This document shows positions 1-18,937 of a stretch of DNA of 64,000 bases, piece after piece. The stretch is from a virus. Position 1 is the first letter of the stretch, and every line of letters begins with the position of its first letter. The translations under genes were made by a program, and so were the position numbers. The stretch is taken from IMG/VR virus record IMGVR_UViG_3300011116_000834, positions 1-64,000 of that record. One strand, given 5' to 3'. A model generated the notes under the pieces. It did not search any database. It saw only the letters and a program-made list of their open reading frames with translations, and was not told the origin of the DNA.

Positions 1-65
1 GCCCCTGTTGATAGTATCTGGTTATCGGACGGTCCGATAAAATACTATCAACTTTTATCGGACTT
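1..65. promoter_or_regulatory. Operator-like repeat cluster upstream of the first early gene
   Basis: Two short words recur on both strands: GTTGATAGTA at 7-16 and its complement TACTATCAAC at 43-52, and TTATCGGA/TCCGATAA at 22-29, 33-40 and 55-62. The 22-40 pair forms an inverted repeat. The same words occur between most genes up to 5250, always outside coding regions. They are probably binding sites for one or two regulators acting on the nearby early promoters; the protein is not identified. Confidence 0.6.
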
Positions 66-98
66 TATATTATCAGAAGCTAAATCGACAATGAAATG

Positions 99-153
99 CA
101 GAAATATCGTCTGAGGGATTTGCATCGAGCCGATTCGATGGCATACTTGTGGC
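99..153 (+). promoter_or_regulatory. Early promoter giving a leaderless transcript (gene at 154)
   Basis: An AGAAATATC-type box (about 100-108) is followed by -35 TTGCAT at 120-125, a 16-bp spacer, -10 CATACT at 142-147, and 6 nt before ATG at 154. With normal sigma-70 spacing, transcription would begin at the A of the start codon. Ten more promoters in the first 5.5 kb have the same geometry. Confidence 0.8.
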
Positions 154-420
154 ATGAGCAACGACTCCAACAACATCGGAACTAACCCTCTCGCAACTCC
201 CGCCAAGCGCGGACCCAAGCCGATCAAGACGCTTGATCAGCTGCAGGCAGCACTTCAGCAGGAAATCCTGATGACTGAGGTGCGCAAGATCGACAAGAAG
301 ATCGCGACCCATACGCGCGCACGCAAGCGCGCTCAGGCGCAGATCAGCGACTGCGACCGTGCAGTCGCGGAACTTACCGCGCTCCGCGCTGAGTTCCTCA
401 AGACCTACGGTCTTGCCTGA
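154..420 (+). CDS. Small basic/helical protein of unknown function
   Basis: An 88-residue protein with no recognised domain. An N-terminal low-complexity stretch contains KRGPKP (an AT-hook-like basic patch), followed by a long predicted helix or coiled coil rich in Ala, Arg, Lys and Gln (residues about 28-82). The basic patch and helix would suit a small nucleic-acid-binding protein, but this is inference. The ATG is fixed by the promoter: it lies 6 nt after the -10 box and has no ribosome binding site, so the mRNA is probably leaderless. GC content is higher than in the rest of the phage. The next gene follows after a 73-nt gap holding a strong GC hairpin. Confidence 0.75.
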   Translation: MSNDSNNIGTNPLATPAKRGPKPIKTLDQLQAALQQEILMTEVRKIDKKIATHTRARKRAQAQISDCDRAVAELTALRAEFLKTYGLA

Positions 421-435
421 CCCGACATTGGCAAG

Positions 436-470
436 GTGACGGGGGAGGGGAGAACCCCCTCCCCCACTCT
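436..470 (+). terminator. GC-rich intergenic hairpin
   Basis: A G-rich arm (about 440-451) pairs with a C-rich arm (about 456-467). No T tract follows, so it could be a weak terminator or an mRNA-stabilising hairpin between the genes at 154 and 494. Confidence 0.45.
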
Positions 471-493
471 ACACTTTCAACAGAAACGAGAAA

Positions 494-865
494 ATGGAAA
501 TGTTTGACCCAAAGAGCATGATTCAGGGGAAAAACCCCAACCTCGACAACGCGCAAGTTCTCGCTGCCTTCATGGATCTCGTACGGCTGAACCTTGGTGA
601 TGTTCTTCGGAACAATCGTCACAATATGCGCATGAGTTCGACCGATCTGATCGTTCTGTCGGCTGCGTGCCGAGTTCTGGCCAATATCAGGATTCAGATC
701 GGCGAGGGAAGCGAGTGGACTAGTTACGACCAGTCCAACCTTGGCATGGACATTCTCAGGTACTGCGAAGAGCAGGCTCTCAATGCAAAATCGGAAAATA
801 CTTCAGTTTCCGATGTTGCAGACCGCATCTTCAACGATCTCCGCAATGACGGACTGATCGGATAA
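494..865 (+). CDS. Hypothetical helical protein
   Basis: A 123-residue protein, predicted mostly helical, with no family I recognise. The start is not certain: ATG at 494 or 500 are both possible, with a weak purine-rich GAGAAA stretch just upstream. It has no promoter of the leaderless type and probably depends on readthrough from the gene at 154. A strong terminator follows at 887. Codon use is GC-rich like its neighbours. Function unknown; its position in the early block is the only clue. Confidence 0.7.
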   Translation: MEMFDPKSMIQGKNPNLDNAQVLAAFMDLVRLNLGDVLRNNRHNMRMSSTDLIVLSAACRVLANIRIQIGEGSEWTSYDQSNLGMDILRYCEEQALNAKSENTSVSDVADRIFNDLRNDGLIG

Positions 866-886
866 CAAATCGTTGTGGTTCATGTG

Positions 887-923
887 ACCCTCGTCCGATA
901 ACACGGACGGGGGTTGCTTTTTT
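887..923 (+). terminator. Rho-independent terminator
   Basis: A 10-bp stem (887-896 with 905-914) is followed by a TTTTTTATT tract. The loop contains one copy of the TCCGATAA word (894-901), so the operator-like word overlaps the terminator. Confidence 0.85.
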
Positions 924-1012
924 ATTATCGGTCAAGGTCCGATAACGGTTGATAGTATTTTATCGGATCGTCCGATAAGGAACTATCAACTTTTTATCAG
1001 ACCGTCCGATAA
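924..1012. promoter_or_regulatory. Dense operator-like repeat cluster
   Basis: TCCGATAA at 938-945, 971-978 and 1005-1012, TTATCGGA at 960-967, GTTGATAGTA at 948-957, and a partial ACTATCAAC near 982-990. The segment from about 938 to 978 reappears essentially unchanged at 3691-3731 upstream of another early gene, so this is a duplicated regulatory module. Confidence 0.65.
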
Positions 1013-1027
1013 AGCTAAATATCATGG

Positions 1028-1078
1028 AAATGTTCCTCAATGATTTGCTTCTCACGATTCTGATGGCATATTGTTGGT
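1028..1078 (+). promoter_or_regulatory. Early leaderless promoter (gene at 1079)
   Basis: -35 TTGCTT at 1045-1050, a 16-bp spacer, -10 CATATT at 1067-1072 and 6 nt to ATG 1079. A GAAATGTTC sequence replaces the usual upstream AGAAATATC box. Confidence 0.8.
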
Positions 1079-1351
1079 ATGAACAACTCTACCAAGTACC
1101 CCGACATCGTAGTGGATCTCTCCCGCGTCAGCGGGAACTCCTTCAGCATTTTGGGTGCAGTCACCCGTGCCATGAGGGAGGCAGGGATTCCCATCACGGC
1201 AATCGACAAGTTCCGCACCGAAGCCATGAGCGGCACTTACAACCACTTGATCTTCACGGTGACCAAGTGGGTTGCCGTCGAGGGGTTCACCCCCTACGCA
1301 GACGATGATGAGGATGAGGATGAGGATGAAGACGAGGAGGATCTTGACTGA
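1079..1351 (+). CDS. Hypothetical protein with acidic C-terminal tail
   Basis: A 90-residue protein: a mixed alpha/beta body (residues 1-74) followed by a run of Asp and Glu (residues about 75-90) ending DLD. No family recognised. Acidic tails on small early phage proteins can mediate binding to host nucleic-acid-binding proteins, but that is only a possibility here. The leaderless start is fixed by the promoter. The stop overlaps the next start as TGATG, so the downstream small gene is probably translationally coupled. Confidence 0.75.
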   Translation: MNNSTKYPDIVVDLSRVSGNSFSILGAVTRAMREAGIPITAIDKFRTEAMSGTYNHLIFTVTKWVAVEGFTPYADDDEDEDEDEDEEDLD

Positions 1352-1473
1352 TGACGAGATTCAACAAGGGAGATGCATGGTTCTTTCATCGGTTTCACGG
1401 AATGGACGATTCCGATGACCATGATGGGGCAGACGAGAGGGAAGAGGAAGAACCATGCAATGAGGATGAATAA
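1351..1473 (+). CDS. Very small acidic hypothetical protein
   Basis: A 40-residue ORF (starts MTRFNKGDAWFFHRFHG) whose second half is almost entirely acidic. Its ATG overlaps the preceding stop by one base. It ends just before a strong terminator, which suggests it is the second gene of a two-gene early operon. Function unknown; the acidic end echoes the tail of the preceding protein. Confidence 0.55.
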   Translation: MTRFNKGDAWFFHRFHGMDDSDDHDGADEREEEEPCNEDE

Positions 1474-1479
1474 TCCTCG

Positions 1480-1515
1480 ACCCCATGCACGGCGCGTGCG
1501 TGGGGTTTTTATTTG
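1480..1515 (+). terminator. Rho-independent terminator
   Basis: The stem ACCCCATGCACG pairs with CGTGCGTGGGGT and is followed by TTTTTATTT. It closes the operon starting at 1079. Confidence 0.85.
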
Positions 1516-1523
1516 CCTATGGG

Positions 1524-1533
1524 TACTATCAAC
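1524..1533. promoter_or_regulatory. Isolated operator-like word
   Basis: One copy of TACTATCAAC between two convergent terminators. Copies of this word also sit after terminators at 2394 and 4189. Confidence 0.5.
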
Positions 1534-1540
1534 TGGGAAT

Positions 1541-1581
1541 AATAAAAAACGCCCCCTGCCCGTCGTCAGGGCAGAGGGCGC
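1541..1581 (-). terminator. Terminator for the minus-strand operon 2013-1611
   Basis: On the minus strand, GCCCTCTGCCC pairs with GGGCAGGGGGC and is followed by GTTTTTTATT. Confidence 0.8.
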
Positions 1582-1610
1582 ATGAACCCCATGATTATGA
1601 GACGAAGTTG

Positions 1611-1808
1611 TTATTCGCCTCTCTGCGTTTGGCGAACTTGGTCTAGAAGGATCAGACCGATGCTGCCGATCATCACCCACGCCAAGAACGACCATCCGAT
1701 GTAAAGCAGGAAGGCGAACATGAGAGGAATGGCCGCAACGACGAGGATTCCGACGATCAGGCCGATGGCCACAAGCACGGTTTCGAGGATGTCTTTTGGG
1801 TTGGTCAT
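1611..1808 (-). CDS. Small membrane protein
   Basis: A 65-residue protein (starts MTNPKDILETVLVAIG) with two hydrophobic segments, about residues 9-33 and 36-57, and a short basic/polar C-terminus. It should lie in the host inner membrane as a hairpin. The start at 1808 is one base past the stop of the upstream gene, so the two are an operon from the leaderless promoter near 2020. Early phage membrane peptides can block superinfection or alter host transport, but nothing here identifies the function. A holin role is less likely given its early promoter. Confidence 0.7.
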   Translation of the reverse strand: MTNPKDILETVLVAIGLIVGILVVAAIPLMFAFLLYIGWSFLAWVMIGSIGLILLDQVRQTQRGE

Positions 1809-1809
1809 G

Positions 1810-2013
1810 TTAGGCCTTCCCCATTCCGAAGCAATGCCCACGCGAGAGAATGATCTCCGCGACTGGCGTGATCTCACCTGCGTCGATGCGGTCCATGCAG
1901 AGATCCCCGAAAGATTCGTCCGTAATCGTCAGGATACGGCATCCGTCGAGCGTGTTCCAAGTCTCCCCATCGGGGAAGACTACGATTGTGTGGTGCGTGT
2001 TCTTGTTGTCCAT
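1810..2013 (-). CDS. Hypothetical early protein
   Basis: A 67-residue protein (starts MDNKNTHHTIVVFPDG) of probable beta-rich fold with a central TWNTLDGCRILTITD segment. It resembles the small phage proteins that bind a ligand or another protein, but I do not recognise a family. The start is set by the leaderless promoter immediately upstream. It is followed by the membrane-protein gene with a 1-nt gap. Confidence 0.7.
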   Translation of the reverse strand: MDNKNTHHTIVVFPDGETWNTLDGCRILTITDESFGDLCMDRIDAGEITPVAEIILSRGHCFGMGKA

Positions 2014-2069
2014 GCCATGAGTATGCCATGTATTTAGCTCGAGGCAAATCATATCTACGATATTTTTGG
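2014..2069 (-). promoter_or_regulatory. Early leaderless promoter (minus strand, gene 2013-1810)
   Basis: Reading the minus strand: an AAAATATC box, -35 TTGCCT (2047-2042), 16 bp, -10 CATACT (2025-2020), 6 nt, ATG at 2013. Confidence 0.8.
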
Positions 2070-2077
2070 CTTTGTTG

Positions 2078-2095
2078 TTATCGGAGTTGATAGTA
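2078..2095. promoter_or_regulatory. Operator-like pair between divergent early promoters
   Basis: TTATCGGA at 2078-2085 directly abuts GTTGATAGTA at 2086-2095, midway between the promoter of the minus-strand operon (2013) and that of the plus-strand gene (2174). Confidence 0.6.
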
Positions 2096-2119
2096 TCGCG
2101 GTTCATAATAGATATTTTT

Positions 2120-2173
2120 GGAAATATCATGCGAGTGATTTGCTTTGCCTTGATCTGAACCTATATTTGTCGT
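2120..2173 (+). promoter_or_regulatory. Early leaderless promoter (gene at 2174)
   Basis: A GAAATATC box, -35 TTGCTT at 2140-2145, 16 bp, -10 TATATT at 2162-2167, 6 nt, ATG at 2174. Confidence 0.8.
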
Positions 2174-2362
2174 ATGAACTACCCCTTTGACGACTACTCA
2201 GATTTCGATGGTAGCTACTCAGATTTCGACGGTAGCTACAGCTACGGCCTGACTGAGAAGCAGATTCAGGATCGTATGGACTACGCGATCAACGGCAACG
2301 AGCTCGAGGATGATCTCGACTTCGGTGATCTTTTCGACGACGAAGACCCCGACGACGAGTAG
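2174..2362 (+). CDS. Small acidic Asp/Tyr-rich protein with a short tandem repeat
   Basis: A 62-residue protein. Near the N-terminus the unit YSDFDGS occurs twice in tandem. A short helix follows, then an acidic C-terminus (about residues 44-62, mostly Asp and Glu). The strong negative charge could mimic DNA, but function is not recognised. The start is fixed by the leaderless promoter. The end of the gene forms the left arm of its own terminator. Confidence 0.7.
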   Translation: MNYPFDDYSDFDGSYSDFDGSYSYGLTEKQIQDRMDYAINGNELEDDLDFGDLFDDEDPDDE

Positions 2363-2386
2363 ACCTCGTCTGTCGGGATTTTATCA
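2345..2386 (+). terminator. Terminator overlapping the stop codon
   Basis: CCCGACGACGAG pairs with CTCGTCTGTCGGG and is followed by ATTTTAT. The left arm is the last codons of the preceding gene. A TACTATCAAC word follows at 2394-2403. Confidence 0.75.
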
Positions 2387-2416
2387 TACCCCCTACTATC
2401 AACATGGGAAAATAAA

Positions 2417-2446
2417 AACAACAACCGCTTTCGCGGTTGTTGTGTG
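2417..2446 (-). terminator. Terminator for the minus-strand gene at 2468
   Basis: A perfect stem of CAACAACCGC and GCGGTTGTTG. The minus-strand side runs into TTTTTATTTT, so it serves mainly the leftward gene. Confidence 0.8.
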
Positions 2447-2467
2447 ATAATCGGTTTGTATCGTTTA

Positions 2468-2773
2468 TTACATCCGCGCTGCGACCAAATCATCAATGAT
2501 CTGATCAATCTTCTTGACACAGACCTTGCGGATCTCTTGAGGAACATCGTCGCCCTCAAAGAGGAAGTCGCCGTTCTCATCGACAACGACGAGGTGAAGA
2601 TCGAAACACTCGACCTCAGGAACAGTCTGAGTGCGACGACCAGCTGAAGCGAGGGGATAATCCCAAGCATCGGTGCGCTCGGTGTAGCTCACCATGATGT
2701 CTCCATAAACGAAGACCTGCTTGCCGTTGTAGACGATTGGCGCGAACTTGTTGTATTCGATTTCCATTTCCAT
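2468..2773 (-). CDS. Hypothetical early protein
   Basis: A 101-residue protein (starts MEMEIEYNKFAPIVYNG), beta-rich in the first two thirds with a C-terminal helix (about residues 78-101, IRKVCVKKIDQIIDDLV). No family recognised. The promoter fixes the start at 2773; an in-frame ATG 6 nt upstream would lie inside the promoter. It is a single-gene transcript ending at the hairpin near 2440. Confidence 0.7.
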   Translation of the reverse strand: MEMEIEYNKFAPIVYNGKQVFVYGDIMVSYTERTDAWDYPLASAGRRTQTVPEVECFDLHLVVVDENGDFLFEGDDVPQEIRKVCVKKIDQIIDDLVAARM

Positions 2774-2832
2774 ACCCACAATATGCCATGTATTTGGCTA
2801 GATGCAAATGCATTTAGCGATATTTCTGCATT
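2774..2832 (-). promoter_or_regulatory. Early leaderless promoter (minus strand, gene 2773-2468)
   Basis: Minus strand: an AGAAATATC box, -35 TTGCAT (2807-2802), 16 bp, -10 CATATT (2085-style element at 2785-2780), 6 nt, ATG at 2773. TCCGATAA (2844-2851) and TACTATCAAC (2855-2864) lie just upstream. Confidence 0.8.
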
Positions 2833-2843
2833 TCGTATAAAAG

Positions 2844-2864
2844 TCCGATAAGGGTACTATCAAC
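2844..2864. promoter_or_regulatory. Operator-like pair
   Basis: TCCGATAA at 2844-2851 and TACTATCAAC at 2855-2864, spaced as elsewhere in the early block, upstream of the promoter for the gene at 2773. Confidence 0.6.
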
Positions 2865-2891
2865 CCCGCCCCCCCATTCGGAGGGCGGGGT
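2864..2891 (-). terminator. GC-rich hairpin after the minus-strand gene 3219-2911
   Basis: CCCCGCCC pairs with GGGCGGGG around a short loop. There is no T tract, so termination is probable but not certain. Confidence 0.5.
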
Positions 2892-2910
2892 GGGTGAGGA
2901 AGACTGAGAG

Positions 2911-3219
2911 TTATTCGTGACCCCCCGTCGCGTAGAACTCATTCGACCACTCTTCAAAGAGTGGGTGCGTCGAGGTGAAGTCAACCACATTCTCCATCGG
3001 GGAGCAGGTGTGGTAACCATCCTGCAAGAGTGTGGCGCGTCCGATCTTCTCGCCATCCTTGAAGACGGTGAGGAAGCAGAGGTCATCGACCGCACGCACC
3101 TCCTCATATACGAGATCCGCGTTGTCGGAGCGGGAGAGGAGAAGATATCCCGCTCCGACGAGCGAGAAGGTGCATCCGTGATTGGCAAGGTGACGGGTGA
3201 GTGAGAGGATTGCGTTCAT
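2911..3219 (-). CDS. Hypothetical early protein
   Basis: A 102-residue alpha/beta protein (starts MNAILSLTRHLANHG). The central segment GAGYLLLSRSDNADLVYEEV looks like a compact beta-alpha unit; no family recognised. The leaderless promoter sets the start at 3219. It is transcribed divergently from the gene at 3362, with which it shares a perfect inverted-repeat promoter region. Confidence 0.7.
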   Translation of the reverse strand: MNAILSLTRHLANHGCTFSLVGAGYLLLSRSDNADLVYEEVRAVDDLCFLTVFKDGEKIGRATLLQDGYHTCSPMENVVDFTSTHPLFEEWSNEFYATGGHE

Positions 3220-3361
3220 GCCCATAGTATGCATTCAAATTAGCTCAATGCAAATCATCTTGGTGATATTTCTCAATATGATGTTATCTACCAATAAGCT
3301 AAAAGATAGAAATATCACCAAGATGATTTGCATCTTCAGAATTGGAATGCATACTGTTGGT
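3220..3361. promoter_or_regulatory. Divergent pair of early promoters on a 25-bp perfect inverted repeat
   Basis: Leftward: -10 CATACT (3231-3226), 16 bp, -35 TTGCAT (3253-3248). Rightward: -35 TTGCAT (3328-3333), 16 bp, -10 CATACT (3350-3355), 6 nt, ATG 3362. The blocks 3249-3273 and 3308-3332 are exact reverse complements. Each spans the -35 box and the upstream AGAAATATC box, which defines the conserved part of the promoter beyond the -10. Confidence 0.8.
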
Positions 3362-3616
3362 ATGAACACTCTTGAACGCAACACCGTGATCGCCGCTCTC
3401 CAGAACGGACTCTGCCGAGTCCAGTTTATCAAGGCAGATGGGACCGAGCGCGTGATGATCGCCACGCTCGCCGCATCGTACCTTCCCCAGACTACTGGCG
3501 GTACGCTCACCCGCTCTCCCGATCTCATCGTCTGCTTCGATACGGGAACCAACGCATGGCGTTCCTTTTATCTCCCCCGCGTGATTGAGTTCACGCCACT
3601 CTCAAAAGCGGCATAA
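3362..3616 (+). CDS. SH3-like beta-barrel protein (DUF2693-like)
   Basis: An 84-residue protein. A short N-terminal helix leads into GLCRVQFIKADGTERVMIATL, then an extended loop and WRSFYLPRV near the C-terminus. This pattern (GxCxVxFxKxDGTxRxMxxTL, later W-x-SF) is that of the small SH3-fold proteins found in many T4-like phages. A second member of the family is at 18849. The role in infection is unknown; the fold suggests protein or nucleic-acid binding. The leaderless start is fixed by the promoter. Followed by two hairpins. Confidence 0.75.
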   Translation: MNTLERNTVIAALQNGLCRVQFIKADGTERVMIATLAASYLPQTTGGTLTRSPDLIVCFDTGTNAWRSFYLPRVIEFTPLSKAA

Positions 3617-3642
3617 GCCGCAAAGGACAACTCTCCTTTGGC

Positions 3643-3673
3643 AAACCCCTGACACGGTGTTGGGGGTTTGTCT
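3643..3673 (+). terminator. Terminator
   Basis: CAAACCCC pairs with GGGGTTTG around a GC loop, with TCTGTTCCT downstream. A second small hairpin lies just before it (about 3617-3640). Confidence 0.65.
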
Positions 3674-3689
3674 GTTCCTATAATATAAA

Positions 3690-3731
3690 GTCCGATAACG
3701 GTTGATAGTATTTTATCGGATCGTCCGATAA
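3690..3731. promoter_or_regulatory. Operator-like cluster, duplicate of 938-978
   Basis: TCCGATAA (3691-3698), GTTGATAGTA (3701-3710), TTATCGGA (3713-3720) and TCCGATAA (3724-3731), in the same order, spacing and near-identical sequence as upstream of the gene at 1079. Confidence 0.65.
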
Positions 3732-3741
3732 CAACAAAGCC

Positions 3742-3795
3742 AGAAATATCGTGCAAGTGATTTGCATCGAGCCAAATACATGGCATACTGTTGGT
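3742..3795 (+). promoter_or_regulatory. Early leaderless promoter (gene at 3796)
   Basis: An AGAAATATC box, -35 TTGCAT at 3762-3767, 16 bp, -10 CATACT at 3784-3789, 6 nt, ATG at 3796. Confidence 0.8.
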
Positions 3796-4113
3796 ATGAA
3801 CACCGCAGCAACCACAATCGCCAACCGCATCATCATGACCATCAAAACCTTCTGGCTCCCGCGCGGGATGCGCGTCGAACGATGCGACGAGCGCATCGAC
3901 GGGTCTTTCGATCTTGAGATCCGCATCGGGCATGGCGAGTCGCTCATCATGGGCATCGACGGCAACTGGGCGAAGGAGCCGGGCGAGAGGAATGTGAGTG
4001 TTAATTTCTCGCTGAAGGTCGACCAGTTTCAGGGGCATGAGCAGATGCGCCAGCTCGCGCAGTTGCTGGGTACGATGGTCCGCATCGGTGATGTTCTTGA
4101 AGAGAACCTCTGA
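3796..4113 (+). CDS. Hypothetical early protein
   Basis: A 105-residue protein (starts MNTAATTIANRIIMTIK) with a beta-rich middle (residues about 20-75, including FDLEIRIGHGESLIMGIDGNW cut by loops) and a C-terminal helix (MRQLAQLLGTMVRIGDV). No family recognised. The leaderless start is set by the promoter. GC-rich codon use like the rest of this block. A strong terminator follows. Confidence 0.7.
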   Translation: MNTAATTIANRIIMTIKTFWLPRGMRVERCDERIDGSFDLEIRIGHGESLIMGIDGNWAKEPGERNVSVNFSLKVDQFQGHEQMRQLAQLLGTMVRIGDVLEENL

Positions 4114-4133
4114 AAGAGAACCTCTGACCATCT

Positions 4134-4186
4134 CCTGATTATCATCCTCTCCTCTCCCAAGCAAGGGGGAGGATGATAATCTTTAA
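4134..4186 (+). terminator. Rho-independent terminator
   Basis: A long stem, ATTATCATCCTC with GAGGATGATAAT plus an inner CCC/GGG, is followed by CTTT. TACTATCAAC (4189-4198) and TCCGATAA (4206-4213) follow directly. Confidence 0.75.
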
Positions 4187-4188
4187 AC

Positions 4189-4213
4189 TACTATCAACCG
4201 CCGCGTCCGATAA
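4189..4213. promoter_or_regulatory. Operator-like pair before the PEP-CTERM gene
   Basis: TACTATCAAC at 4189-4198 and TCCGATAA at 4206-4213. Confidence 0.6.
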
Positions 4214-4227
4214 CAAATAAAACACAA

Positions 4228-4278
4228 AATATCCCTCAAGCGATTTGCATTGAGCTAATCATGTGGCATACTCTTGGC
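4228..4278 (+). promoter_or_regulatory. Early leaderless promoter (gene at 4279)
   Basis: An AAAATATC box, -35 TTGCAT at 4245-4250, 16 bp, -10 CATACT at 4267-4272, 6 nt, ATG at 4279. Confidence 0.8.
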
Positions 4279-4893
4279 ATGAAGATTCTCATCTCACTCA
4301 CCGTTCTTGCGCTTTCACCTTTGGCATCTGCTTCCCTCACCTTTGAGGATCTTCCGATGCCTCCTGACCAGTACGCGACCATCCGCATTGCGGAGATGCC
4401 GCCCGCCTACAGCGGATTCACTTTCAGCAACTGGGGCTATTACACCGTCCCGAACGGCATCGACTTCAATGGTTTCGATGACGGCATCATCGGAACCCGT
4501 GCGCTCTACACTCCCACCAACAACGACAACGATGGGGGCGAGAATCGCTACACGATCTTTCGCTCTGAGCGGTTCACCTTCACTAGCGCAAGCGTGACGC
4601 AGTTGTTCGCTGCCGATAACGGTGGCGACGATTTCGGTGGCGATATCACTCGCCTCACGATCAAGGGATTCGTCGGTGACCATCAGGTCTACAGCGTCAA
4701 CCAGTACCTTGCGTATGCGGTTCGCCTGACTGTTACCGCTCCTGCGGTTGAGGTGGATCGGCTTGAGTTCTCGACGGATACGGGCGAAGGCTTCGCGATC
4801 GATAATCTCTATGCAGACCCGATTGTTCCTGCTCCTGCGTCGATCGCGCTCCTCGGTCTTGCAGGTCTGATCGGAAAGAGGAAGCGCAACTAA
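4279..4893 (+). CDS. Exported protein with PEP-CTERM-like C-terminal sorting signal
   Basis: A 204-residue protein. An N-terminal signal peptide (Lys, hydrophobic core, probable cut after SASA, residue about 18) is followed by a beta-rich ectodomain with many Asp, Asn and Gly residues. At the C-terminus VPAPAS is followed by a hydrophobic stretch (IALLGLAGLIG) and a basic end KRKRN. This tripartite tail is the PEP-CTERM type recognised by exosortases; the PAPA form is typical of planctomycetes. The protein should therefore be secreted and attached to the host surface or shed into the extracellular matrix. It starts at a leaderless early promoter, so the host surface may be altered soon after infection. 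A second such protein is at 23336. Confidence 0.85.
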   Translation: MKILISLTVLALSPLASASLTFEDLPMPPDQYATIRIAEMPPAYSGFTFSNWGYYTVPNGIDFNGFDDGIIGTRALYTPTNNDNDGGENRYTIFRSERFTFTSASVTQLFAADNGGDDFGGDITRLTIKGFVGDHQVYSVNQYLAYAVRLTVTAPAVEVDRLEFSTDTGEGFAIDNLYADPIVPAPASIALLGLAGLIGKRKRN

Positions 4894-4941
4894 ATCGGCA
4901 AAATGATTTGCCTTCGGTCGATTTGAGTGTATACTCTTGGC
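4890..4941 (+). promoter_or_regulatory. Early leaderless promoter (gene at 4942)
   Basis: -35 TTGCCT at 4908-4913, 16 bp, -10 TATACT at 4930-4935, 6 nt, ATG at 4942. The upstream box is weak here (TAAATCGG). The promoter begins at the stop codon of the PEP-CTERM gene. Confidence 0.8.
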
Positions 4942-5145
4942 ATGGACACCACTCAAATCGACAACTGCTCGGACAACTACCTCATCGACGCATTCATCGA
5001 CCTCGACGCAGACTTCGATCTCTGCGTCACGGCAGCAGAGCGCGCTCGTCACCAAGAACTCAGAAATGAGCTGAAGGAAGAGATTGAGGCGCGTGGCTAC
5101 ACCGTCCGCGCGATCAACGGCGGATGGGAAATCAAGCAGAAGTGA
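4942..5145 (+). CDS. Small acidic helical protein
   Basis: A 67-residue protein (starts MDTTQIDNCSDNYLID) with two acidic helices (about residues 12-30 and 31-52) and a short beta end, VRAINGGWEIKQK. The layout (two helices, then a strand) is seen in small phage proteins of unknown role. The leaderless ATG is fixed by the promoter. A terminator follows at 5169. Confidence 0.7.
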   Translation: MDTTQIDNCSDNYLIDAFIDLDADFDLCVTAAERARHQELRNELKEEIEARGYTVRAINGGWEIKQK

Positions 5146-5168
5146 CAAAACCGACATAAAAGGGATAG

Positions 5169-5202
5169 ACCCCCCAACCAGTAATGGTGGGGGGTTTATT
5201 AA
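5169..5202 (+). terminator. Rho-independent terminator
   Basis: ACCCCCC pairs with GGGGGGT and is followed by TTATTAATTT. Confidence 0.8.
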
Positions 5203-5231
5203 TTTAATAATTTATTATTTTTCACCCACAG

Positions 5232-5250
5232 TCCGATAATGTTGATAGTA
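5232..5250. promoter_or_regulatory. Last operator-like pair of the early block
   Basis: TCCGATAA at 5232-5239 directly followed by GTTGATAGTA at 5241-5250. No copies of either word stand out further right. Confidence 0.55.
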
Positions 5251-5257
5251 TGACAAA

Positions 5258-5283
5258 GATTATCCCATACATTGGGATAATCG
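5258..5283 (-). terminator. Hairpin after the minus-strand gene 5474-5304
   Basis: ATTATCCCA and TGGGATAAT form a 9-bp stem with a short loop; CTTTGTC follows on the minus strand. Confidence 0.55.
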
Positions 5284-5303
5284 GTGATCGTAACTCCTTT
5301 GGG

Positions 5304-5474
5304 TTAGATGGTGTTGAAAAGGTTACGGGACTCGAGCTCGGCAAGAATGCGAGCTCGCTCATCCTCTTGGGCGGGATCGCGAATGATCCACTCGAGCTGC
5401 TTGAGCACGCGAATCAGCTCAGCTTCGGTGCGCTGCGAGAGGGGGATGTACTTGTGTGCTTCGATGGTGTACAT
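5304..5474 (-). CDS. Small helical hypothetical protein
   Basis: A 56-residue protein (starts MYTIEAHKYIPLSQRT) with two charged helices (about 12-32 and 36-50). No family recognised. The evidence for it is the leaderless promoter immediately upstream on the minus strand, which fits the 10 other examples exactly. A plus-strand reading frame over the same bases has no promoter or ribosome binding site. It is the last gene of the early block. Confidence 0.7.
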   Translation of the reverse strand: MYTIEAHKYIPLSQRTEAELIRVLKQLEWIIRDPAQEDERARILAELESRNLFNTI

Positions 5475-5526
5475 GCCATGAGTATGCCATATGATTAGCT
5501 AAATGCAAGCGATTGTATTGATATTC
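5475..5526 (-). promoter_or_regulatory. Early leaderless promoter (minus strand, gene 5474-5304)
   Basis: Minus strand: a GAATATC box, -35 TTGCAT (5508-5503), 16 bp, -10 CATACT (5486-5481), 6 nt, ATG at 5474. Confidence 0.8.
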
Positions 5527-5717
5527 TTTGCTGGTGCATCTGGTACAGACCATCCAGGTAAACCAGAGGGGTCATCACACTATGGGAAAGCTAGAAGGGA
5601 CTTATTATGGGACCCAGGGCTAGCAATTTTTCCCGCTACCAAAATCCCCCTTCAAAGTTGATTCCCCGAATTCCAAAATTTTTTCGCTATGAAAATTGAG
5701 TTTCTATAAGTCGCATA
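5527..5717. other. Noncoding junction between GC-rich early block and AT-rich cassette
   Basis: About 190 bases with no convincing gene. A 52-codon frame on the plus strand begins at 5503, but that ATG lies inside the -35 box of the leftward promoter and has no ribosome binding site. Base composition changes across this stretch. Confidence 0.5.
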
Positions 5718-5750
5718 AAAAACCCCCCATTGCTGGGGGGTTTTGTTTTA
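5718..5750. terminator. Bidirectional terminator
   Basis: AACCCCCC pairs with GGGGGGTT, with A-rich sequence on the left and TTTTGTTTTA on the right. It ends the minus-strand gene 6248-5748. Confidence 0.85.
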
Positions 5751-6248
5751 TTGATCAACTGCAAATATGGGAATTTCACCCACATCACCCAATCCTCCTA
5801 CTCCGAGGAATGGATATTTCGGTATATTCGGAATTAATCCAAATAGAGAGTTTAAATCGTTTGATGTATCGATCCCTGCATTTACTATGCTTCTACCATT
5901 AATGGATCTTATGAATCTATTTTGTCCAGACAATGTTCTCTTTTGCATTTTTCCAGTGTTTAGATTGAAGAACCATACTGTTGGACGAACAACATAACCA
6001 GATCCAGTGCTATGGGAATAGTTTGGCATGTTAAGAGGTGAATCTGGTGAATTCGCTGGTATTGCTGGACCAATGTTCAAGTTTCCGTTTTCATTTACAA
6101 CCCAATAGAAGTCGTTGCCATCCAGAAACCATTTACCTCCACCATTGGGTGGATATTCCGATGGTGGGATATTATCCATATTAAGGTCTTCATTCAATAA
6201 GGATTCGATTAATCTTTCTCTGATTCTATTTTTCATTTGATCGTGCAT
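5748..6248 (-). CDS. Putative internal head protein, capsid-targeting N-terminus
   Basis: A 166-residue protein. Residues about 1-21 form a basic amphipathic helix ending SLLNE (MHDQMKNRIRERLIESLLNE), the form of T4 internal-protein propeptides cut after (L/I)-x-E by prohead protease gp21. The rest is Pro-, Gly- and Asn-rich with GGGKWFLDGNDFYWVVNENGN, a Trp/Tyr/Gly motif shared with neighbours. The function of the mature part is unknown; packaging into the head is inferred from the N-terminus. It is alone on the minus strand at the start of the cassette. A TATAAATA box for the rightward genes lies in its upstream region. Confidence 0.7.
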   Translation of the reverse strand: MHDQMKNRIRERLIESLLNEDLNMDNIPPSEYPPNGGGKWFLDGNDFYWVVNENGNLNIGPAIPANSPDSPLNMPNYSHSTGSGYVVRPTVWFFNLNTGKMQKRTLSGQNRFIRSINGRSIVNAGIDTSNDLNSLFGLIPNIPKYPFLGVGGLGDVGEIPIFAVDQ

Positions 6249-6262
6249 ATTCTTATATATTG

Positions 6263-6270
6263 TATAAATA
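6263..6270 (+). promoter_or_regulatory. T4-type late promoter
   Basis: An exact TATAAATA. The start codon at 6297 lies 26 nt downstream, with a GAAGGA ribosome binding site between. Confidence 0.7.
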
Positions 6271-6296
6271 TCCTATACAACCTGAAGGAAAAATAT

Positions 6297-6587
6297 ATGA
6301 ACTTAAAAGAATATTATAGAGCAAGATTAAGTAATCTACTCAGCGAAGAAAAAGCGAAAAAGCAAAGTTTGGAAAAACAGTCCGATACCGCATTGGGAGA
6401 TTTGGAGGGTTTGATTGACGATGCGCATGCTAGGATGAAAAGATCTAATGATCCTAGATTCGCTGCGCAGCATAAAACCTTAGCAAACCATTTCATGGAT
6501 GCATGGAATCACCATATGGTCGGTGAATACGACAAGGCAATTGAAGTTGCTCGTCGTGGAATAGCAGCAAAAAGTAAGAAAGATTGA
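6297..6587 (+). CDS. Small helical protein with capsid-targeting-like N-terminus
   Basis: A 96-residue, mostly helical protein. The N-terminus MNLKEYYRARLSNLLSEE is a basic amphipathic helix ending LLSE, as in the putative packaged proteins around it. The remainder has Lys/Glu-rich helices and no recognised domain. A good ribosome binding site (GAAGGA) sets the start. Its stop overlaps the TTG start of the next gene as TTGA, so the two are probably coupled. Confidence 0.7.
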   Translation: MNLKEYYRARLSNLLSEEKAKKQSLEKQSDTALGDLEGLIDDAHARMKRSNDPRFAAQHKTLANHFMDAWNHHMVGEYDKAIEVARRGIAAKSKKD

Positions 6588-7447
6588 ATAGAATTCTAAC
6601 CCAGATATCGTGTGAACTTGCTGCGTCTCCAGAAGAGCATCGCAGCGGTCTCATGCATAGAAGGAATCTTCCACCAGGAACTGGAATGCTCTTTCGGTTC
6701 GATGCACCAGACATTCTATCCTTCTGGGGAAGAAACACTCTCATTCCGCTCGACATTGCATTCATTGATGAGAATGGAATCATAGAGAGCATCGGAGCAA
6801 TTTCTCCACAGTCTCGGAATACCATTCGCAGCAATGGTCCATGTCTATATGCACTTGAGGTTTCTCGCGGAACATTCGATGAGCATGGTGTCCAAATAGG
6901 GAACTTCGTGCAAATGGAAAATAATAAATATGGAGTCGATGTTTCCATATATGAGGCATCAGAAAAAAATTTAAGGGAAAACACATTGAAAAGTTTAAAG
7001 ACTTTACTCAGGCAAAAATTAATAGAAAAGCAATTGTATAGTAATAATGCTCGTATAGAACAATTAAATCCTAACAATACAGGTAATAAAACAGAGGAAC
7101 CTGAATATTCACCTGAAGATCCAAATTGGCCTTCTTGGATTCCTATATTTCCTCCAGACCTTATAGAAAATGGTAGAGATATATGGATATTTAATCCCAA
7201 AGATGGATTATGGCATCATATACTTTATACTGGTTATGATACAATAATAATTAAAGATGAAATCCCATTTGGATTCCCACCAGGTGGTCATCTATATTGG
7301 AGACCAGGTATGGATGAACCTAGATTCCATTGGCCAATTATTGATAATGATAATTCATATGCTACAGAAATTAATTCACCTTCATCTACTCAAACATTAA
7401 AACCCAATTTTAATACATCACAAATAGTAGATACTAAAATAGATTGA
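6584..7447 (+). CDS. DUF192 domain fused to a Trp/Pro-rich segment
   Basis: A 287-residue protein. Residues about 8-110 match DUF192: SGLMHRRNLPPGTGMLFRF, then FWGRNTLIPLDIAFID and a conserved LEVSRGTF region. DUF192 is a small beta-fold found in exported bacterial proteins and archaea; function not settled. Residues about 130-150 (SLKTLLRQKLIEK) look like the capsid-targeting helix seen at the N-terminus of neighbours, here internal. Residues about 175-260 are Trp/Pro/Gly-rich (PNWPSWIPIF, WIFNPKDGLWHHI, YWRPGMDEP). The arrangement suggests two genes joined in frame. The start is TTG, overlapping the previous stop. Confidence 0.75.
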   Translation: MNRILTQISCELAASPEEHRSGLMHRRNLPPGTGMLFRFDAPDILSFWGRNTLIPLDIAFIDENGIIESIGAISPQSRNTIRSNGPCLYALEVSRGTFDEHGVQIGNFVQMENNKYGVDVSIYEASEKNLRENTLKSLKTLLRQKLIEKQLYSNNARIEQLNPNNTGNKTEEPEYSPEDPNWPSWIPIFPPDLIENGRDIWIFNPKDGLWHHILYTGYDTIIIKDEIPFGFPPGGHLYWRPGMDEPRFHWPIIDNDNSYATEINSPSSTQTLKPNFNTSQIVDTKID

Positions 7448-7459
7448 ATTGGAACTATA

Positions 7460-7948
7460 ATGAATCAGCAAATAAAAGATAAAATTAAGCGTAAAATATA
7501 TGAACATCTTTTAAAAGAACAAGAAATGCCTGAGGGGGAGGGCGATGGTTGGCTTGAAGACTGGCCTAACTGGATTCCTCATAATTTATATCCAGCTTCA
7601 GGTCCAGGAGTGGGTCCACATATTCCAATTTGGATTTGGAATCCAGATGATAACACATGGTATCAGGTTTATTATTCACATAATCCTCCAGGATGGGTTA
7701 GAATAATTGAGCAACGACCAGGTGATGTGGGGCACCCACCAAATGGTTTGTTTTGGAAGCCAGGAATGAAGTACCCAAAACTTCAGAATCCCGTACTACC
7801 TCGTATACCACCCACTATACCAAGACCCTCAAAACCATTAACAAATCCAAATCCATGGTATGATCCTAATGGTGAGTTTCCTTGGAATACACCATGGGAT
7901 CCGATTCAAAATAGGCCGCTCAAACCACTATCACAGCAACTAGATTAA
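7460..7948 (+). CDS. Putative internal head protein, Trp/Pro-rich
   Basis: A 162-residue protein. The N-terminal basic helix ends in HLLKEQ (about residue 21), matching the (L/I)-x-E cleavage pattern. The body is very rich in Trp, Pro, Gly and Asn, with WIWNPDDNTWYQVYY and GLFWKPGMKYP. These same blocks occur in the second half of the preceding protein, so the two are paralogues in part. No enzyme motif is visible. A terminator follows. Confidence 0.7.
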   Translation: MNQQIKDKIKRKIYEHLLKEQEMPEGEGDGWLEDWPNWIPHNLYPASGPGVGPHIPIWIWNPDDNTWYQVYYSHNPPGWVRIIEQRPGDVGHPPNGLFWKPGMKYPKLQNPVLPRIPPTIPRPSKPLTNPNPWYDPNGEFPWNTPWDPIQNRPLKPLSQQLD

Positions 7949-7954
7949 TACAAA

Positions 7955-7986
7955 CAAATCCCATCGAAAGGTGGGATTTGTTTTTA
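7955..7986 (+). terminator. Rho-independent terminator
   Basis: ACAAATCCCA pairs with TGGGATTTGT and is followed by TTTT. The next gene's late promoter begins at its edge. Confidence 0.85.
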
Positions 7987-7994
7987 CATAAATA
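7987..7994 (+). promoter_or_regulatory. Late-type promoter, 6 nt from the start codon
   Basis: CATAAATA, one base from the T4 late consensus, with 6 nt to ATG 8001. Transcription would start at or next to the ATG. Confidence 0.55.
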
Positions 7995-8000
7995 TGTAAT

Positions 8001-8342
8001 ATGGATTTTACAAAATATTATAAATTCAAACTTCAAGAGCAATTGATTAATCCACCAGGAACAATCAATCCACATCGACCAGGTTCTCCAGGTTATAATA
8101 GCAATCCTCAATTTCCAGGAACACCGCCAGGAACAGTTCCTCCCGTATCACCACCACCAGTTAATGATCATCCAGTATTTCAGGGTCCTAATGATAATCC
8201 TAACAATCGATCTCCTATATTGTGGGAACCACCACCATACTGGCATCCAATCTGGAATCCGAAAGGATATCATCCAATTTGGAATCCCCATGGTATAAAG
8301 GGAAACTGGGGACCATTACGACCAGGTGAAGATTATGTCTAA
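8001..8342 (+). CDS. Pro/Asn/Gly-rich hypothetical protein of the cassette
   Basis: A 113-residue protein. The short N-terminus MDFTKYYKFKLQEQ ends in LQE, resembling the capsid-targeting propeptides nearby. The rest is low-complexity and nearly a third Pro, with WEPPPYWHPIWNPKGYHPIWNP (two near-copies of a HPIWNP unit). No fold or function can be assigned. There is no clear ribosome binding site; the late-type box 6 nt upstream suggests a leaderless start. Confidence 0.65.
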   Translation: MDFTKYYKFKLQEQLINPPGTINPHRPGSPGYNSNPQFPGTPPGTVPPVSPPPVNDHPVFQGPNDNPNNRSPILWEPPPYWHPIWNPKGYHPIWNPHGIKGNWGPLRPGEDYV

Positions 8343-8345
8343 ATA
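8338..8345 (+). promoter_or_regulatory. Possible late-type promoter
   Basis: TCTAAATA overlaps the preceding stop codon and lies 6 nt before ATG 8352. A weaker match than 7987. Confidence 0.35.
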
Positions 8346-8351
8346 TACAAT

Positions 8352-9116
8352 ATGGAAAATATAACTCATAAATTTTGGTTGAAACCAGGCGGAACACTTC
8401 ATACTTTTGAAGATAGCATTACGCATCATCATATACATGAGGTTCTTGATCATCCAGAACAATTTGGTACTTCTATTCCCGAATTGACTGCAATTCATCA
8501 AGAAGGCAGAAAAGCAGGAATAGAGTCACATGATATCTCGCATCCTGATTTTACTTGGTCTGAAGGAATCCATAATTTTCTTGCAAAAAAGGGATTCATT
8601 CGTGGGTTAAACAACTCAAATAAACGGAAGAGTAGTTTTGATCTACAGTCGTCAAAGGGTCAACCACACCCAAGTGAATTCGTAGAACATGTTCGTGGTT
8701 TGGTTCAGCATATACCAAAAGACGACAGACCAATTTTAATTCATCTAGATTTTAATCCATTTGCAGATAAGGATGATCCTCATGGAACTTCAGTTGAAGA
8801 ATTTGACGACACTGCTAAAAAATTCTTAGAAGATCGTGGGATAGATAAAAAGCATTATAAAGATACAGGATCGATTCATCTTACAAGTTGGCAGGATATT
8901 CATAAATTTATAGGTGAATCTGGCGGAAAAAGAAGAAGAATTGGTGATATCGATGAACCCAATTCAGTTACAAGTGCTCATGTGCGAAATGCATTAGGTG
9001 CAAATCCAGGAAATGTTCCAAAGGCAATTTGGAATAACATGAGAAATTTTGGAGATTCCTATACTCCAAGCATATTGTCATTTAGATCTTTCCTAAAGGA
9101 AATGTATTCTAAATAA
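8352..9116 (+). CDS. Hypothetical protein, His-rich, with capsid-targeting-like C-terminus
   Basis: A 254-residue alpha/beta protein. The N-terminal part is His-rich (THHHIHEVLDHPEQFG). The central region HIPKDDRPILIHLDFNPFAD and SIHLTSWQDIHKFIGE reads like a Rossmann-type or nuclease-like core, but no family is recognised. The last residues, LSFRSFLKEMYSK, resemble the targeting helix that is N-terminal in the neighbours, which is unusual. Within the packaged-cargo cassette it is a candidate injected enzyme. No ribosome binding site is evident. Confidence 0.7.
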   Translation: MENITHKFWLKPGGTLHTFEDSITHHHIHEVLDHPEQFGTSIPELTAIHQEGRKAGIESHDISHPDFTWSEGIHNFLAKKGFIRGLNNSNKRKSSFDLQSSKGQPHPSEFVEHVRGLVQHIPKDDRPILIHLDFNPFADKDDPHGTSVEEFDDTAKKFLEDRGIDKKHYKDTGSIHLTSWQDIHKFIGESGGKRRRIGDIDEPNSVTSAHVRNALGANPGNVPKAIWNNMRNFGDSYTPSILSFRSFLKEMYSK

Positions 9117-9131
9117 TAGGGAAATTCATAT

Positions 9132-9731
9132 ATGGATATAAATCAATTCAAACAATCATTGCAAAATGTTTTCCTAAACGAAAACTCATATAATACCCAT
9201 GATATAAAAGCATGGCAAAGCGGAGTTCGAAGTGCACAACTTTCGGGTAATCCAAATTTCAGAACAGGATTACAAGCACATCCTTTGTTCCATGCTGGAT
9301 ATCAAGCAGGAATGCGTATTGGACCACATGCAGAAGATCCATCTCATATGGCAAATGCAGTAAGTCCAGAAAGACTTCGCTCATATCGGGATTCGACAAA
9401 AATACATGATCATATGGTAGCAAAGGTAGCAGATCACTTTGCTCCTATTCTTGCTGGTCAAGAACCAGATATGATTCCACATTATAAGAATCTAATATCT
9501 TCTCATCTTAATAATCACGAAAGTGGTCAATTCAAATCATCAAAAGATGCAGCAACTGCTGCATTGCAGATCTTTGGCAATCACCCAAACATGAGCAGAC
9601 GCTGGGATGATGTAATTACATCGTGGGAAGGCAGCACACATAATCCAAATTATAGATCTCGTAATTCGCAAGGAAGTCCATTCCGAAATGAGTCTGCTGC
9701 CAATCATTGGTATGCTCATACATTTTTCTGA
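9132..9731 (+). CDS. Putative internal head protein
   Basis: A 199-residue protein. The N-terminal helix MDINQFKQSLQNVFLNEN ends FLNE, the predicted prohead-protease site. The mature part is helical, His- and Ser-rich, and shows no recognised domain (for example KAWQSGVRSAQLSGNPNF, MVAKVADHFAPILAG). It overlaps no neighbour; a GGGA-type purine run precedes the start. Function unknown. Confidence 0.7.
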   Translation: MDINQFKQSLQNVFLNENSYNTHDIKAWQSGVRSAQLSGNPNFRTGLQAHPLFHAGYQAGMRIGPHAEDPSHMANAVSPERLRSYRDSTKIHDHMVAKVADHFAPILAGQEPDMIPHYKNLISSHLNNHESGQFKSSKDAATAALQIFGNHPNMSRRWDDVITSWEGSTHNPNYRSRNSQGSPFRNESAANHWYAHTFF

Positions 9732-9739
9732 GAACACAT

Positions 9740-10849
9740 ATGCTAACATTTAGAAATTTTATCGTTGAATCCGAAGAAAACAAATTATTTCTTGAAGATG
9801 AAAGATTTGGAGATTATCTCGTATATCTTTCTGAAGCACATCTATCTCTACTTTCAGAAGCACAGTTATCATTGAATGTGATAAATCCCCATGGAAACAA
9901 TCAACAAGTTTCATGGGGTAGTGTGAAGCAAGGATTTGATCAGGCATCAAATCGACAACAAAGAAGAAACCTTGCAAGGGAAGCAAGAAAGATTCGTCCT
10001 CAGAATCTACTTGGTGCTGAAGGATCAAATCCAAAACTTGCAAAGGAAGGTGAGAATGTTCCAGAATATGCAACCAAGGGACTTTCACTTACTCCATCGG
10101 ATGAATCTGGAAGAATCAATACTTGTTCATGTGCAACAGAAGAATGTCGCGCTGCTTGCTTGAATAAAGCAGGTCGTGGAGCAATGACATTCACACAAAA
10201 GGCAAGACTTGCGCGAACCAACTTCATGTTGGATCATCCTCAGCATTTCATGTCAATGCTTCATGATGAAATCGATGCACATGAAAAATCAGCAACCAAG
10301 AAGGGCAAGAAAGCAGCAGTTCGTCTGAACATCGTTTCCGATATTCCTTGGGAAAAACTACATCCTGAAGTCTTCAGTCAACATCCAAATACTCAGTTCT
10401 ATGATTATACCAAGATTGCAGGAAGAGTATTAAATCCAGATGGATCTAAGAAGCAACTTCCTTCAAATTATCACCTGACATTCTCTTCCACGGGTATACA
10501 TGATCGTGGAAACTGGGATGATGCAAGAAAGCATCTTGACAATGGTGGAGTCGTCGCAATGGTATTCAAAGTACCAGCAGCAAGAAATGGAAAGAAAGGT
10601 GGAGATCTTCCCACTCATGTAGTAGACCAGAAGACTGGAAAGAAGTATAGAGTAATTGATGGAGATCTTCACGATCATAGACATCTGGATCATGTTTATA
10701 ACGATGCATCACCAGATGAAGGATTGATTGCTGGTCTTCGTATCAAAGGTGGAAGGAAGATGGCAGAGAAAGCAGGAGATTTTGCTGTTTCCACAACTCC
10801 TGGACAAGATCATGTTGTTGTTCCAGATATTCAAAGGAAGAAAAAATGA
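9740..10849 (+). CDS. Conserved phage protein with CxC/YDYTK motifs, capsid-targeting N-terminus
   Basis: A 369-residue protein. The N-terminus MLTFRNFIVESEE has the short targeting pattern (FIVE). From about residue 105 it matches a family widespread in phages (I recall it as DUF7227-like): GLSLTPSD, INTCSCATEECRAACLNKAG, an AR-x-x-RT-NFML segment, VRLNIVSDIPWE, FYDYTKIAGR and VIDGDLHDHRHLD. The clustered Cys and the Asp/His end suggest metal binding and perhaps nucleic-acid processing, but the reaction is not known. The start at 9740 is preferred over one at 9707, which would overlap the upstream gene. Confidence 0.75.
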   Translation: MLTFRNFIVESEENKLFLEDERFGDYLVYLSEAHLSLLSEAQLSLNVINPHGNNQQVSWGSVKQGFDQASNRQQRRNLAREARKIRPQNLLGAEGSNPKLAKEGENVPEYATKGLSLTPSDESGRINTCSCATEECRAACLNKAGRGAMTFTQKARLARTNFMLDHPQHFMSMLHDEIDAHEKSATKKGKKAAVRLNIVSDIPWEKLHPEVFSQHPNTQFYDYTKIAGRVLNPDGSKKQLPSNYHLTFSSTGIHDRGNWDDARKHLDNGGVVAMVFKVPAARNGKKGGDLPTHVVDQKTGKKYRVIDGDLHDHRHLDHVYNDASPDEGLIAGLRIKGGRKMAEKAGDFAVSTTPGQDHVVVPDIQRKKK

Positions 10850-11568
10850 ATTACGAATTTAAAAATAAATTAAAAGCAAGATTGTATGAACAATTATTGA
10901 ATGAACAAATCGCCAAACCAATAAAAAACATTTTAGTAGATCCTTCTTTATGGATACCATGGATTAAGGGAATATTCAGAACGGATATAGAGCGTTTCGG
11001 TGTGCGTTTATTTTCTAATAAAGAAACTATTCAACGATTTCTTGGTAGAACTCTTACTGCTGAAGAAATGGCAGCAATGAGAGCAAATGGTACTTGGGAA
11101 AGATATCAGAATGCTTATAGAGATTCTACTGAATTCTGGCATATAATTGAAAATTGGGGAGGTGTAGGAAAATTTGGACTTAATAATTTTGATAATTTCT
11201 ATCTAACTCAGGAAGGTAGATATTTTGTACAAAATATAGAAAATGGAAAATGGTATGGTGTAGGAGTAAGAGGATATCCAAATCCCAGTCCTCCACCAGC
11301 AACTCTTGTTAGACTTTATCCAGAATTTGAAATGCCACCAGGCTGGAAACCAGGAATGGACTATCCTCATGATGTTGGAGGTGGGTCAGGAGTTGGAACA
11401 ATGAGAAATCCTAATAATGAAGAAATGGGACATGGAGTTGGAATCATTCGTAATGGACCTGGACCTGGATCTGGATCTGGACCTGGATCAATACCATCAG
11501 GTGAAAGACCAACTGAAGATCGTGGAATAGATCCATGGAATTCAGATACACCCTTTCAACAAGCATAA
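10846..11568 (+). CDS. Putative internal head protein, paralogue 1 of a Trp/Pro family
   Basis: A 240-residue protein. The N-terminal basic helix ends EQLLNEQ (about residue 20). The middle is a helical region, then a beta unit GRYFVQNIENGKWYGVGVRGY, then EMPPGWKPGMDYP. A Gly/Pro/Ser linker leads to the C-terminal tag EDRGIDPWNSDTPFQQA, shared with the proteins at 12729 and 13458. The ATG overlaps the previous stop as ATGA, with AAGGAAG upstream. Confidence 0.75.
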   Translation: MNYEFKNKLKARLYEQLLNEQIAKPIKNILVDPSLWIPWIKGIFRTDIERFGVRLFSNKETIQRFLGRTLTAEEMAAMRANGTWERYQNAYRDSTEFWHIIENWGGVGKFGLNNFDNFYLTQEGRYFVQNIENGKWYGVGVRGYPNPSPPPATLVRLYPEFEMPPGWKPGMDYPHDVGGGSGVGTMRNPNNEEMGHGVGIIRNGPGPGSGSGPGSIPSGERPTEDRGIDPWNSDTPFQQA

Positions 11569-18721: not shown

Positions 18722-18937
18722 CAAAAACCAAATTGGCAGGAATTCGACTTTAAGGTGGCAAGCGATTATTCTCATGGAAGTCCTGAATATTATAGGGAAA
18801 CTCTCCGTAATATGATCGGTATGCCTACCAATTTACCTGGAGAGAAAAATGATAATCAAGAAGCAAAACCTAACACGCGAAATATTGGTAAAGTTTTTAA
18901 TGCAGGGAATATGTCAAGTTTCCTTCGAAAAACTTAA
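18719..18937 (+). CDS. Small hypothetical protein
   Basis: A 72-residue protein (starts MQKPNWQEFDFKVASD) of uncertain fold with a helix at YYRETLRNMIGM. It overlaps the next gene by 89 nt, which is long, so one of the two starts may lie elsewhere. No ribosome binding site is apparent. Confidence 0.45.
   Translation: MQKPNWQEFDFKVASDYSHGSPEYYRETLRNMIGMPTNLPGEKNDNQEAKPNTRNIGKVFNAGNMSSFLRKT

Follow-up and report, generated by a model that had tools for sequence, protein, structure and literature searches.

The closest described counterpart of the locus reported here is the PEP-CTERM/exosortase system (EpsH, PF09721; signal model TIGR02595; Haft et al. 2006, PMC1569441). Its substrates combine a signal peptide, a diverse ectodomain, a PxP motif, a hydrophobic helix and a basic cluster at the C-terminus. 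In Zoogloea, PEP-CTERM proteins are required for floc formation (PMC9012009). Two proteins of the same design, here called P0001 and P0002, are encoded in a 108,402-bp virus record, of which the first 64,000 nucleotides form the stretch of DNA analysed here (the window). The explanation that we favour, with confidence somewhat above even, is that the genome of a freshwater T4-like phage includes two or more genes whose products are secreted and bear exosortase (PEP-CTERM) signals, the genes having most likely been acquired from a Planctomycetota-type host, and that the proteins are sorted by the host for display at its surface.

A sequence-only reading of the window had proposed that an open reading frame at 4279-4893 joins a signal peptide to a VPAPAS / hydrophobic helix / KRKRN end and thereby has the complete exosortase-type architecture, which was confirmed:

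4279 to 4893, plus strand: P0001, PEP-CTERM-type protein 1, 204 amino acids, ATG start, frame open throughout.
4825 to 4890, plus strand: PEP-CTERM sorting signal of P0001, VPAPAS / hydrophobic helix / KRKRN.

P0001 is composed of a signal peptide (residues 1-18), a beta-rich ectodomain and the tail VPAPASIALLGLAGLIGKRKRN (residues 183-204). By hydropathy the N-terminus is a Sec-type signal with an AxA-type site, MKILISLTVLALSPLASA being followed by SLTFEDL, and the protein ends in GFAIDNLYADPIVPAPASIALLGLAGLIGKRKRN. Upstream, an in-frame ATG at 4261 adjoins the -10 hexamer of the promoter (4267-4272), which makes 4279 the more plausible start. The protein was also compared with PEP-CTERM profile models, the check named in the same reading, and its refuting outcome, no model hit, did not occur. 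With the NCBIfam model TIGR02595 the last 22 residues scored 16.4 bits against a curated cut-off of 16, a narrow pass (library E 0.012), and a search of the record gave a match at 4825-4887 with 19.3 bits (E 3.7e-4), also above the cut-off; the model matched in 0 of 14 control genomes. The Pfam model PF07589 gave 15.7 bits, under its cut-off of 20.7, and NF038120 (PEP_CTERM_QFxxD), with a cut-off of 80, matched at 20 bits and only over the C-terminal part. A PDB sequence search returned no credible match, and AlphaFold models of P0001 and P0002 made without alignment had pLDDT values of 38 and 34, too poor for use.

The second protein lies 19 kb from P0001, directly 5' of a predicted holin gene:

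23336 to 23980, plus strand: P0002, second PEP-CTERM-like protein, 214 amino acids, with signal peptide MTQKIAIIIPVLTLLANQSNA, ectodomain and tail IPAPATLSMLAVAALVSKKTRRRRN, and an AGGAG Shine-Dalgarno sequence upstream.
24002 to 24397, plus strand: predicted holin (phrog_2359, E 2.9e-10), directly downstream of P0002.

The N-terminus of P0002 is signal-like. The signal peptide is followed by DLVNGSFE, and the protein closes with YAIPAPATLSMLAVAALVSKKTRRRRN, a tail of the form IPAPA / helix / KKTRRRRN. P0002 stays below the cut-offs of TIGR02595 and Pfam alike, scoring 12.2 bits with TIGR02595 (cut-off 16) while covering the full profile (1-24). In both proteins the motif is followed by a hydrophobic stretch of transmembrane length and then by a C-terminal basic cluster (SIALLGLAGLIGKRKRN in P0001 and LSMLAVAALVSKKTRRRRN in P0002). 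The motif itself is P-A-P in both (VPAPAS and IPAPAT) and thus departs from the near-invariant Pro-Glu-Pro. PAP and PSP are frequent among the planctomycete PEP-CTERM members found here (VPAPAS, IPAPAS, VPSPGS), so a literal PEP is a weak criterion in Planctomycetota.

In a six-frame scan for the tail pattern, defined as PxP followed by a hydrophobic stretch or helix and a terminal basic cluster, exactly two instances were found in the 108-kb record, P0001 and P0002; about 700 kb of related phage DNA gave no instance. The record thus holds several copies by the tail pattern (two) and one by TIGR02595 at E <= 0.001, that of P0001 being its sole match at this threshold. For the tail alone, chance gives about 0.2 per record, as estimated from 60 dinucleotide shuffles (11 hits) and from residue shuffles (0.206). 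For the tail together with a signal-like N-terminus, about 0.004 are expected and 2 were observed, a Poisson P of about 8e-6 under ad hoc heuristics. Since P0002, in the T4-like part of the record, has the same design as P0001, chance is a very unlikely explanation. A sub-threshold TIGR02595 match in one of 50 related phage records (G015) is a short frame lying over other genes and was rejected as chance.

The relatives of P0001 point to a candidate host group. A GTDB-wide contig scan with its last 49 residues confirmed two loci, one in Phycisphaera sp. NORP138 and one in a MAG labelled Kuenenia, which are both Planctomycetota MAGs, and matches to P0001 were found in 33 of the 392 planctomycete genomes searched, most of them spanning the tail. 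The best homologue, a planctomycete PEP-CTERM protein of genome G303 (L107:1354-2091), aligns with residues 17-203 (E 2.3e-7, 33% identity) and still scored above 2000 shuffles when the tail was removed. Without its tail, P0001 had a match at E <= 0.01 in a single genome among 400 of the order, which shows a divergent ectodomain. Planctomycete homologues of P0002, at E 6e-5 and 9e-4, span most of the protein. Exosortase (PF09721) was detected in all 12 tested genomes with P0001 homologues, versus 2 of 10 without, and counts of PEP-CTERM proteins in planctomycete genomes ranged from 3 to 77 per genome; no exosortase was found in the phage record. Sequence comparison therefore supports the view that the relatives of P0001 are surface proteins of exosortase-encoding Planctomycetota. 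As the whole-protein searches of bacterial genomes with P0001 and P0002 were confined to Planctomycetota, the planctomycete assignment is the best lead, short of proof.

Among viral and mobile sequences the two proteins stand apart. No close relatives of P0001 were found in IMG/VR, INPHARED, plasmids or GTDB contigs by an 8-mer scan, the 49-residue C-terminal query found none in IMG/VR, a search there with P0002 found none, and neither protein matches a PHROG family. In phage records P0001 had no match, and the sole match of P0002 was to an LPxTG surface protein whose contigs are deposited as Listeria phage. These contigs were rejected as true phages, as they look like bacterial chromosome deposited as phage; one of them, L163 (OR848176.1, 'Listeria phage LM 4-14-1'), has chromosomal-looking genes including the LPxTG surface protein. 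The ectodomain of P0002 is 33.6% identical to this sortase-anchored protein of the Listeria-type contig, and its recurrence in an LPxTG-anchored protein is independent evidence for a surface-protein domain.

These data also bear on a simpler proposal, namely that the tails are ordinary C-terminal membrane anchors of bitopic phage membrane proteins that undergo no exosortase processing. The marginal or sub-threshold HMM scores, PAP in place of PEP, and the position of P0002 beside a holin gene, where membrane proteins are common, would suit such anchors. We nevertheless judge this improbable, because in both proteins PxP marks the border of a short helix and the extreme C-terminus is a basic tail, because the same tail is present on homologues in exosortase-encoding genomes, and because P0001 passes the TIGR02595 cut-off.

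P0001 lies in a part of the record that differs in composition from the remainder:

1 to 5530 (right edge approximate), both strands: GC-rich early-type block of 13 short genes, GC3 70%, with 11 leaderless-type promoters.
1079 to 1351, plus strand: phrog_1933 small phage protein, E 5.9e-18, with relatives in 180 phage records.
3362 to 3616, plus strand: WYL_2 / SH3 beta-barrel protein, PF10902 E 3.2e-12, phrog_1086, 37% identity to T4-group phages.
4227 to 4278, plus strand: P0001 promoter, with an AAATATC box (4227-4233), -35 TTGCAT (4245-4250), 16-bp spacer, -10 CATACT (4267-4272) and 6 nt to the ATG.
18849 to 19283, plus strand: second WYL_2 protein (phrog_1086), in the AT-rich T4-like body, with a counterpart at 11460-11678 in the relative G005.

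The same sequence-only reading had placed P0001 under an early promoter. The promoter part of this statement stands (TTGCAT, 16 bp, CATACT, 6 nt, ATG), and early timing is suggested by gene type and layout. The arrangement of -10 box, 6 nt and ATG is common to 11 starts on both strands of window 1-5.5 kb and, as a set, is not found elsewhere. Because the -10 box ends at -7, transcription would begin on the A of the ATG and the block mRNAs should be leaderless; the 11 block transcripts, that of P0001 included, are thus predicted to lack a leader. Two scans of IMG/VR, which may leave out the record itself and near copies, returned no instance of the early promoter pattern. In window 119-5509 the AAATATC box is conserved 5' of the -35 in most of the 11 block genes whose -10 lies exactly 6 nt before the ATG. 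Repeats of the types TTGATAGTA and TCCGATAA, partly palindromic (TTATCGGACGGTCCGATAA), occur near starts and ends of block genes (window 1-60, 938-1013, 3691-3732, 4189-4213 and 5232-5250). The block holds 10 of the 11 copies of the former and 15 of the 21 copies of the latter; they are possible operators or terminators.

The WYL_2 protein at 3362-3616, a relative of T4 early-region proteins, and the phrog_1933 protein are phage signatures; a search for the latter in relatives found none. By this content the block is early phage DNA, which belongs to this phage or to a different one that misassembly has attached. That it is instead host chromosome, with P0001 as one of the host's own PEP-CTERM genes, would fit a composition unlike that of the phage and the abundance of PEP-CTERM genes in Planctomycetota. 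This is hardly credible for a stretch densely packed with tiny genes in both orientations, which share a promoter and include those of the two phage proteins, and in which P0001 has the same promoter as the other block genes and a GC3 (0.67) like that of its neighbours.

Misassembly has more weight. The contig may be a chimera, in which case the assembler fused window 1-5.5 kb, the early region of another, GC-richer phage, with an AT-rich T4-like phage. To this we give a considerable chance, though one below even; P0001 would then lie outside this genome, yet still be phage-encoded and exosortase-tagged. GC3 is 61-79% across all 13 block genes versus 26% for the body (highest body gene 53%), nothing in the collinear relative G005 corresponds to the block, the body already has a WYL_2 gene of its own, and the promoter hexamers are TTGCAT/CATACT in the block versus TTGACA/TATAAT in the body. 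A DUF192 neighbour scan on the junction gave one relative, at 33%, which favours neither side. Against a chimera, the 16-bp spacer and 6-nt gap are shared by clean leaderless promoters outside the block, though these are few: among the cleanest TTGACA/TATAAT-type promoters of the T4-like body and of G005, four have this geometry, two in the body (G000 28296 and 107658) and two in G005 (108723 and 112386). The stretch of the body at 5.7-17 kb is also largely without counterparts in G005, so variable regions are normal here. P0002 lies in the AT-rich body, so the exosortase-tag trait is independent of the block being genuine, and a chimera would have to join two unrelated phages that both carry a rare trait.

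By its gene content, the virus record is a T4-like phage, its T4-type core genes being collinear with those of a relative. Its gp23 is 55% identical to cyanophage gp23, an ssDNA-binding protein (phrog_224) is present, and closely related portal proteins occur in many IMG/VR contigs. The record is collinear with the 117.8-kb relative G005 between about 17.8 and 108 kb, and a single weak match starts at 8.35 kb. A DUF192 protein (window 6584-7447, E 6.8e-26) and a GP88 protein (9707-10849, E 7.1e-38) are encoded in the variable left part of the body. Several proteins encoded in window 5748-11568 have an N-terminus like MNxxxKxKxxxRLxExLLxE, and MKSFKQxITE is found in the same zone of G005; we take these N-termini to resemble the capsid-targeting peptides of T4 internal head proteins. 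At record 106185-108231 (L004 2185-4231) the DNA polymerase frame stops just 5' of genes for a TrmH-like methyltransferase and tRNAs, and in G005 the C-terminal part of the polymerase resumes past these genes. The TrmH-like protein is 98% identical to that of G005 and the neighbouring proteins 68-85%; the region is possibly a mobile insert that splits the polymerase gene.

The reading of P0001 and P0002 as phage-encoded exosortase substrates is well supported by their tails, their relatives and their phage-gene surroundings, which are the early-type block for P0001 and the holin gene for P0002. In the mechanism that we propose, host sigma-70 RNA polymerase would produce an early, leaderless P0001 mRNA, and Sec would export the protein, whose C-terminal helix would anchor it in the inner membrane. 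Host exosortase would then cleave it and pass it to the cell surface or the exopolysaccharide layer, after the model in PMC1569441. The ectodomain would most likely mask or alter the surface and so reduce adsorption by further phages. Surface remodelling or superinfection exclusion may thus be the outcome. Superinfection exclusion is the best fit to early synthesis of a surface protein, yet this step taken alone is rather unlikely to be the right one; the nearest alternative is a change of the matrix, since floc formation in Zoogloea needs PEP-CTERM proteins. For P0002, next to the holin gene, a late role is possible. In its fullest form, put forward tentatively, the proposal is a lytic T4-like planctomycete phage with a set of exosortase substrates, an early leaderless one and a holin-adjacent one, that uses the exosortase of its host to display two different ectodomains on the cell surface, each at its own stage of infection.

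The phage proteins might also act as decoys that occupy the host exosortase and so lower the display of host PEP-CTERM proteins or matrix. An early promoter of its own would suit P0001 for such competition, and the candidate host genomes contain many substrates. Whole ectodomains, needless for a decoy, have been kept, and the two are different, which makes this highly unlikely.

In the papers found by full-text search on PEP-CTERM/exosortase with phage, auxiliary metabolic genes and planctomycete prophages, judged by title or abstract, no phage-encoded exosortase substrates were found, nor did the phage collections searched yield any. The sorting system is known; what appears to be new is that a lytic phage carries substrates for it. 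If the favoured reading is true, phages exploit the exosortase system, tied to floc or matrix at least in Zoogloea (PMC9012009), for changing the host surface. The PEP-CTERM tail would then also help, as a sequence marker, to connect uncultivated phages with hosts that have exosortase, for example Planctomycetota. Like the described PEP-CTERM/exosortase systems, the phage pair is present in several copies per genome and has relatives in exosortase-encoding planctomycetes; unlike them, it is phage-encoded without an exosortase of its own, has PAP for PEP and weak HMM scores, and numbers two copies instead of tens. To our knowledge, few phages of Planctomycetota have been described.

P0001 shares with the planctomycete PEP-CTERM protein of G303, over residues 17-203, the blocks LDFEDLP, GF, GFVGD, VDR and tail (33-35% identity), whereas the planctomycete protein is about 40 residues longer, chromosomal and GC-rich. 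Superinfection-exclusion and surface proteins such as T4 Imm and Sp, T5 Llp and TP-J34 Ltp are small, early or lysogenic, and act at the host envelope; they use Sec plus membrane or lipoprotein anchoring, unlike the tails of P0001 and P0002, and we know of none with an exosortase signal. Homology among exclusion proteins is not to be expected in every case. The LPxTG/sortase proteins of Gram-positive bacteria resemble P0001 and P0002 in the logic of a C-terminal sorting tail, whereas enzyme, tail and envelope differ.
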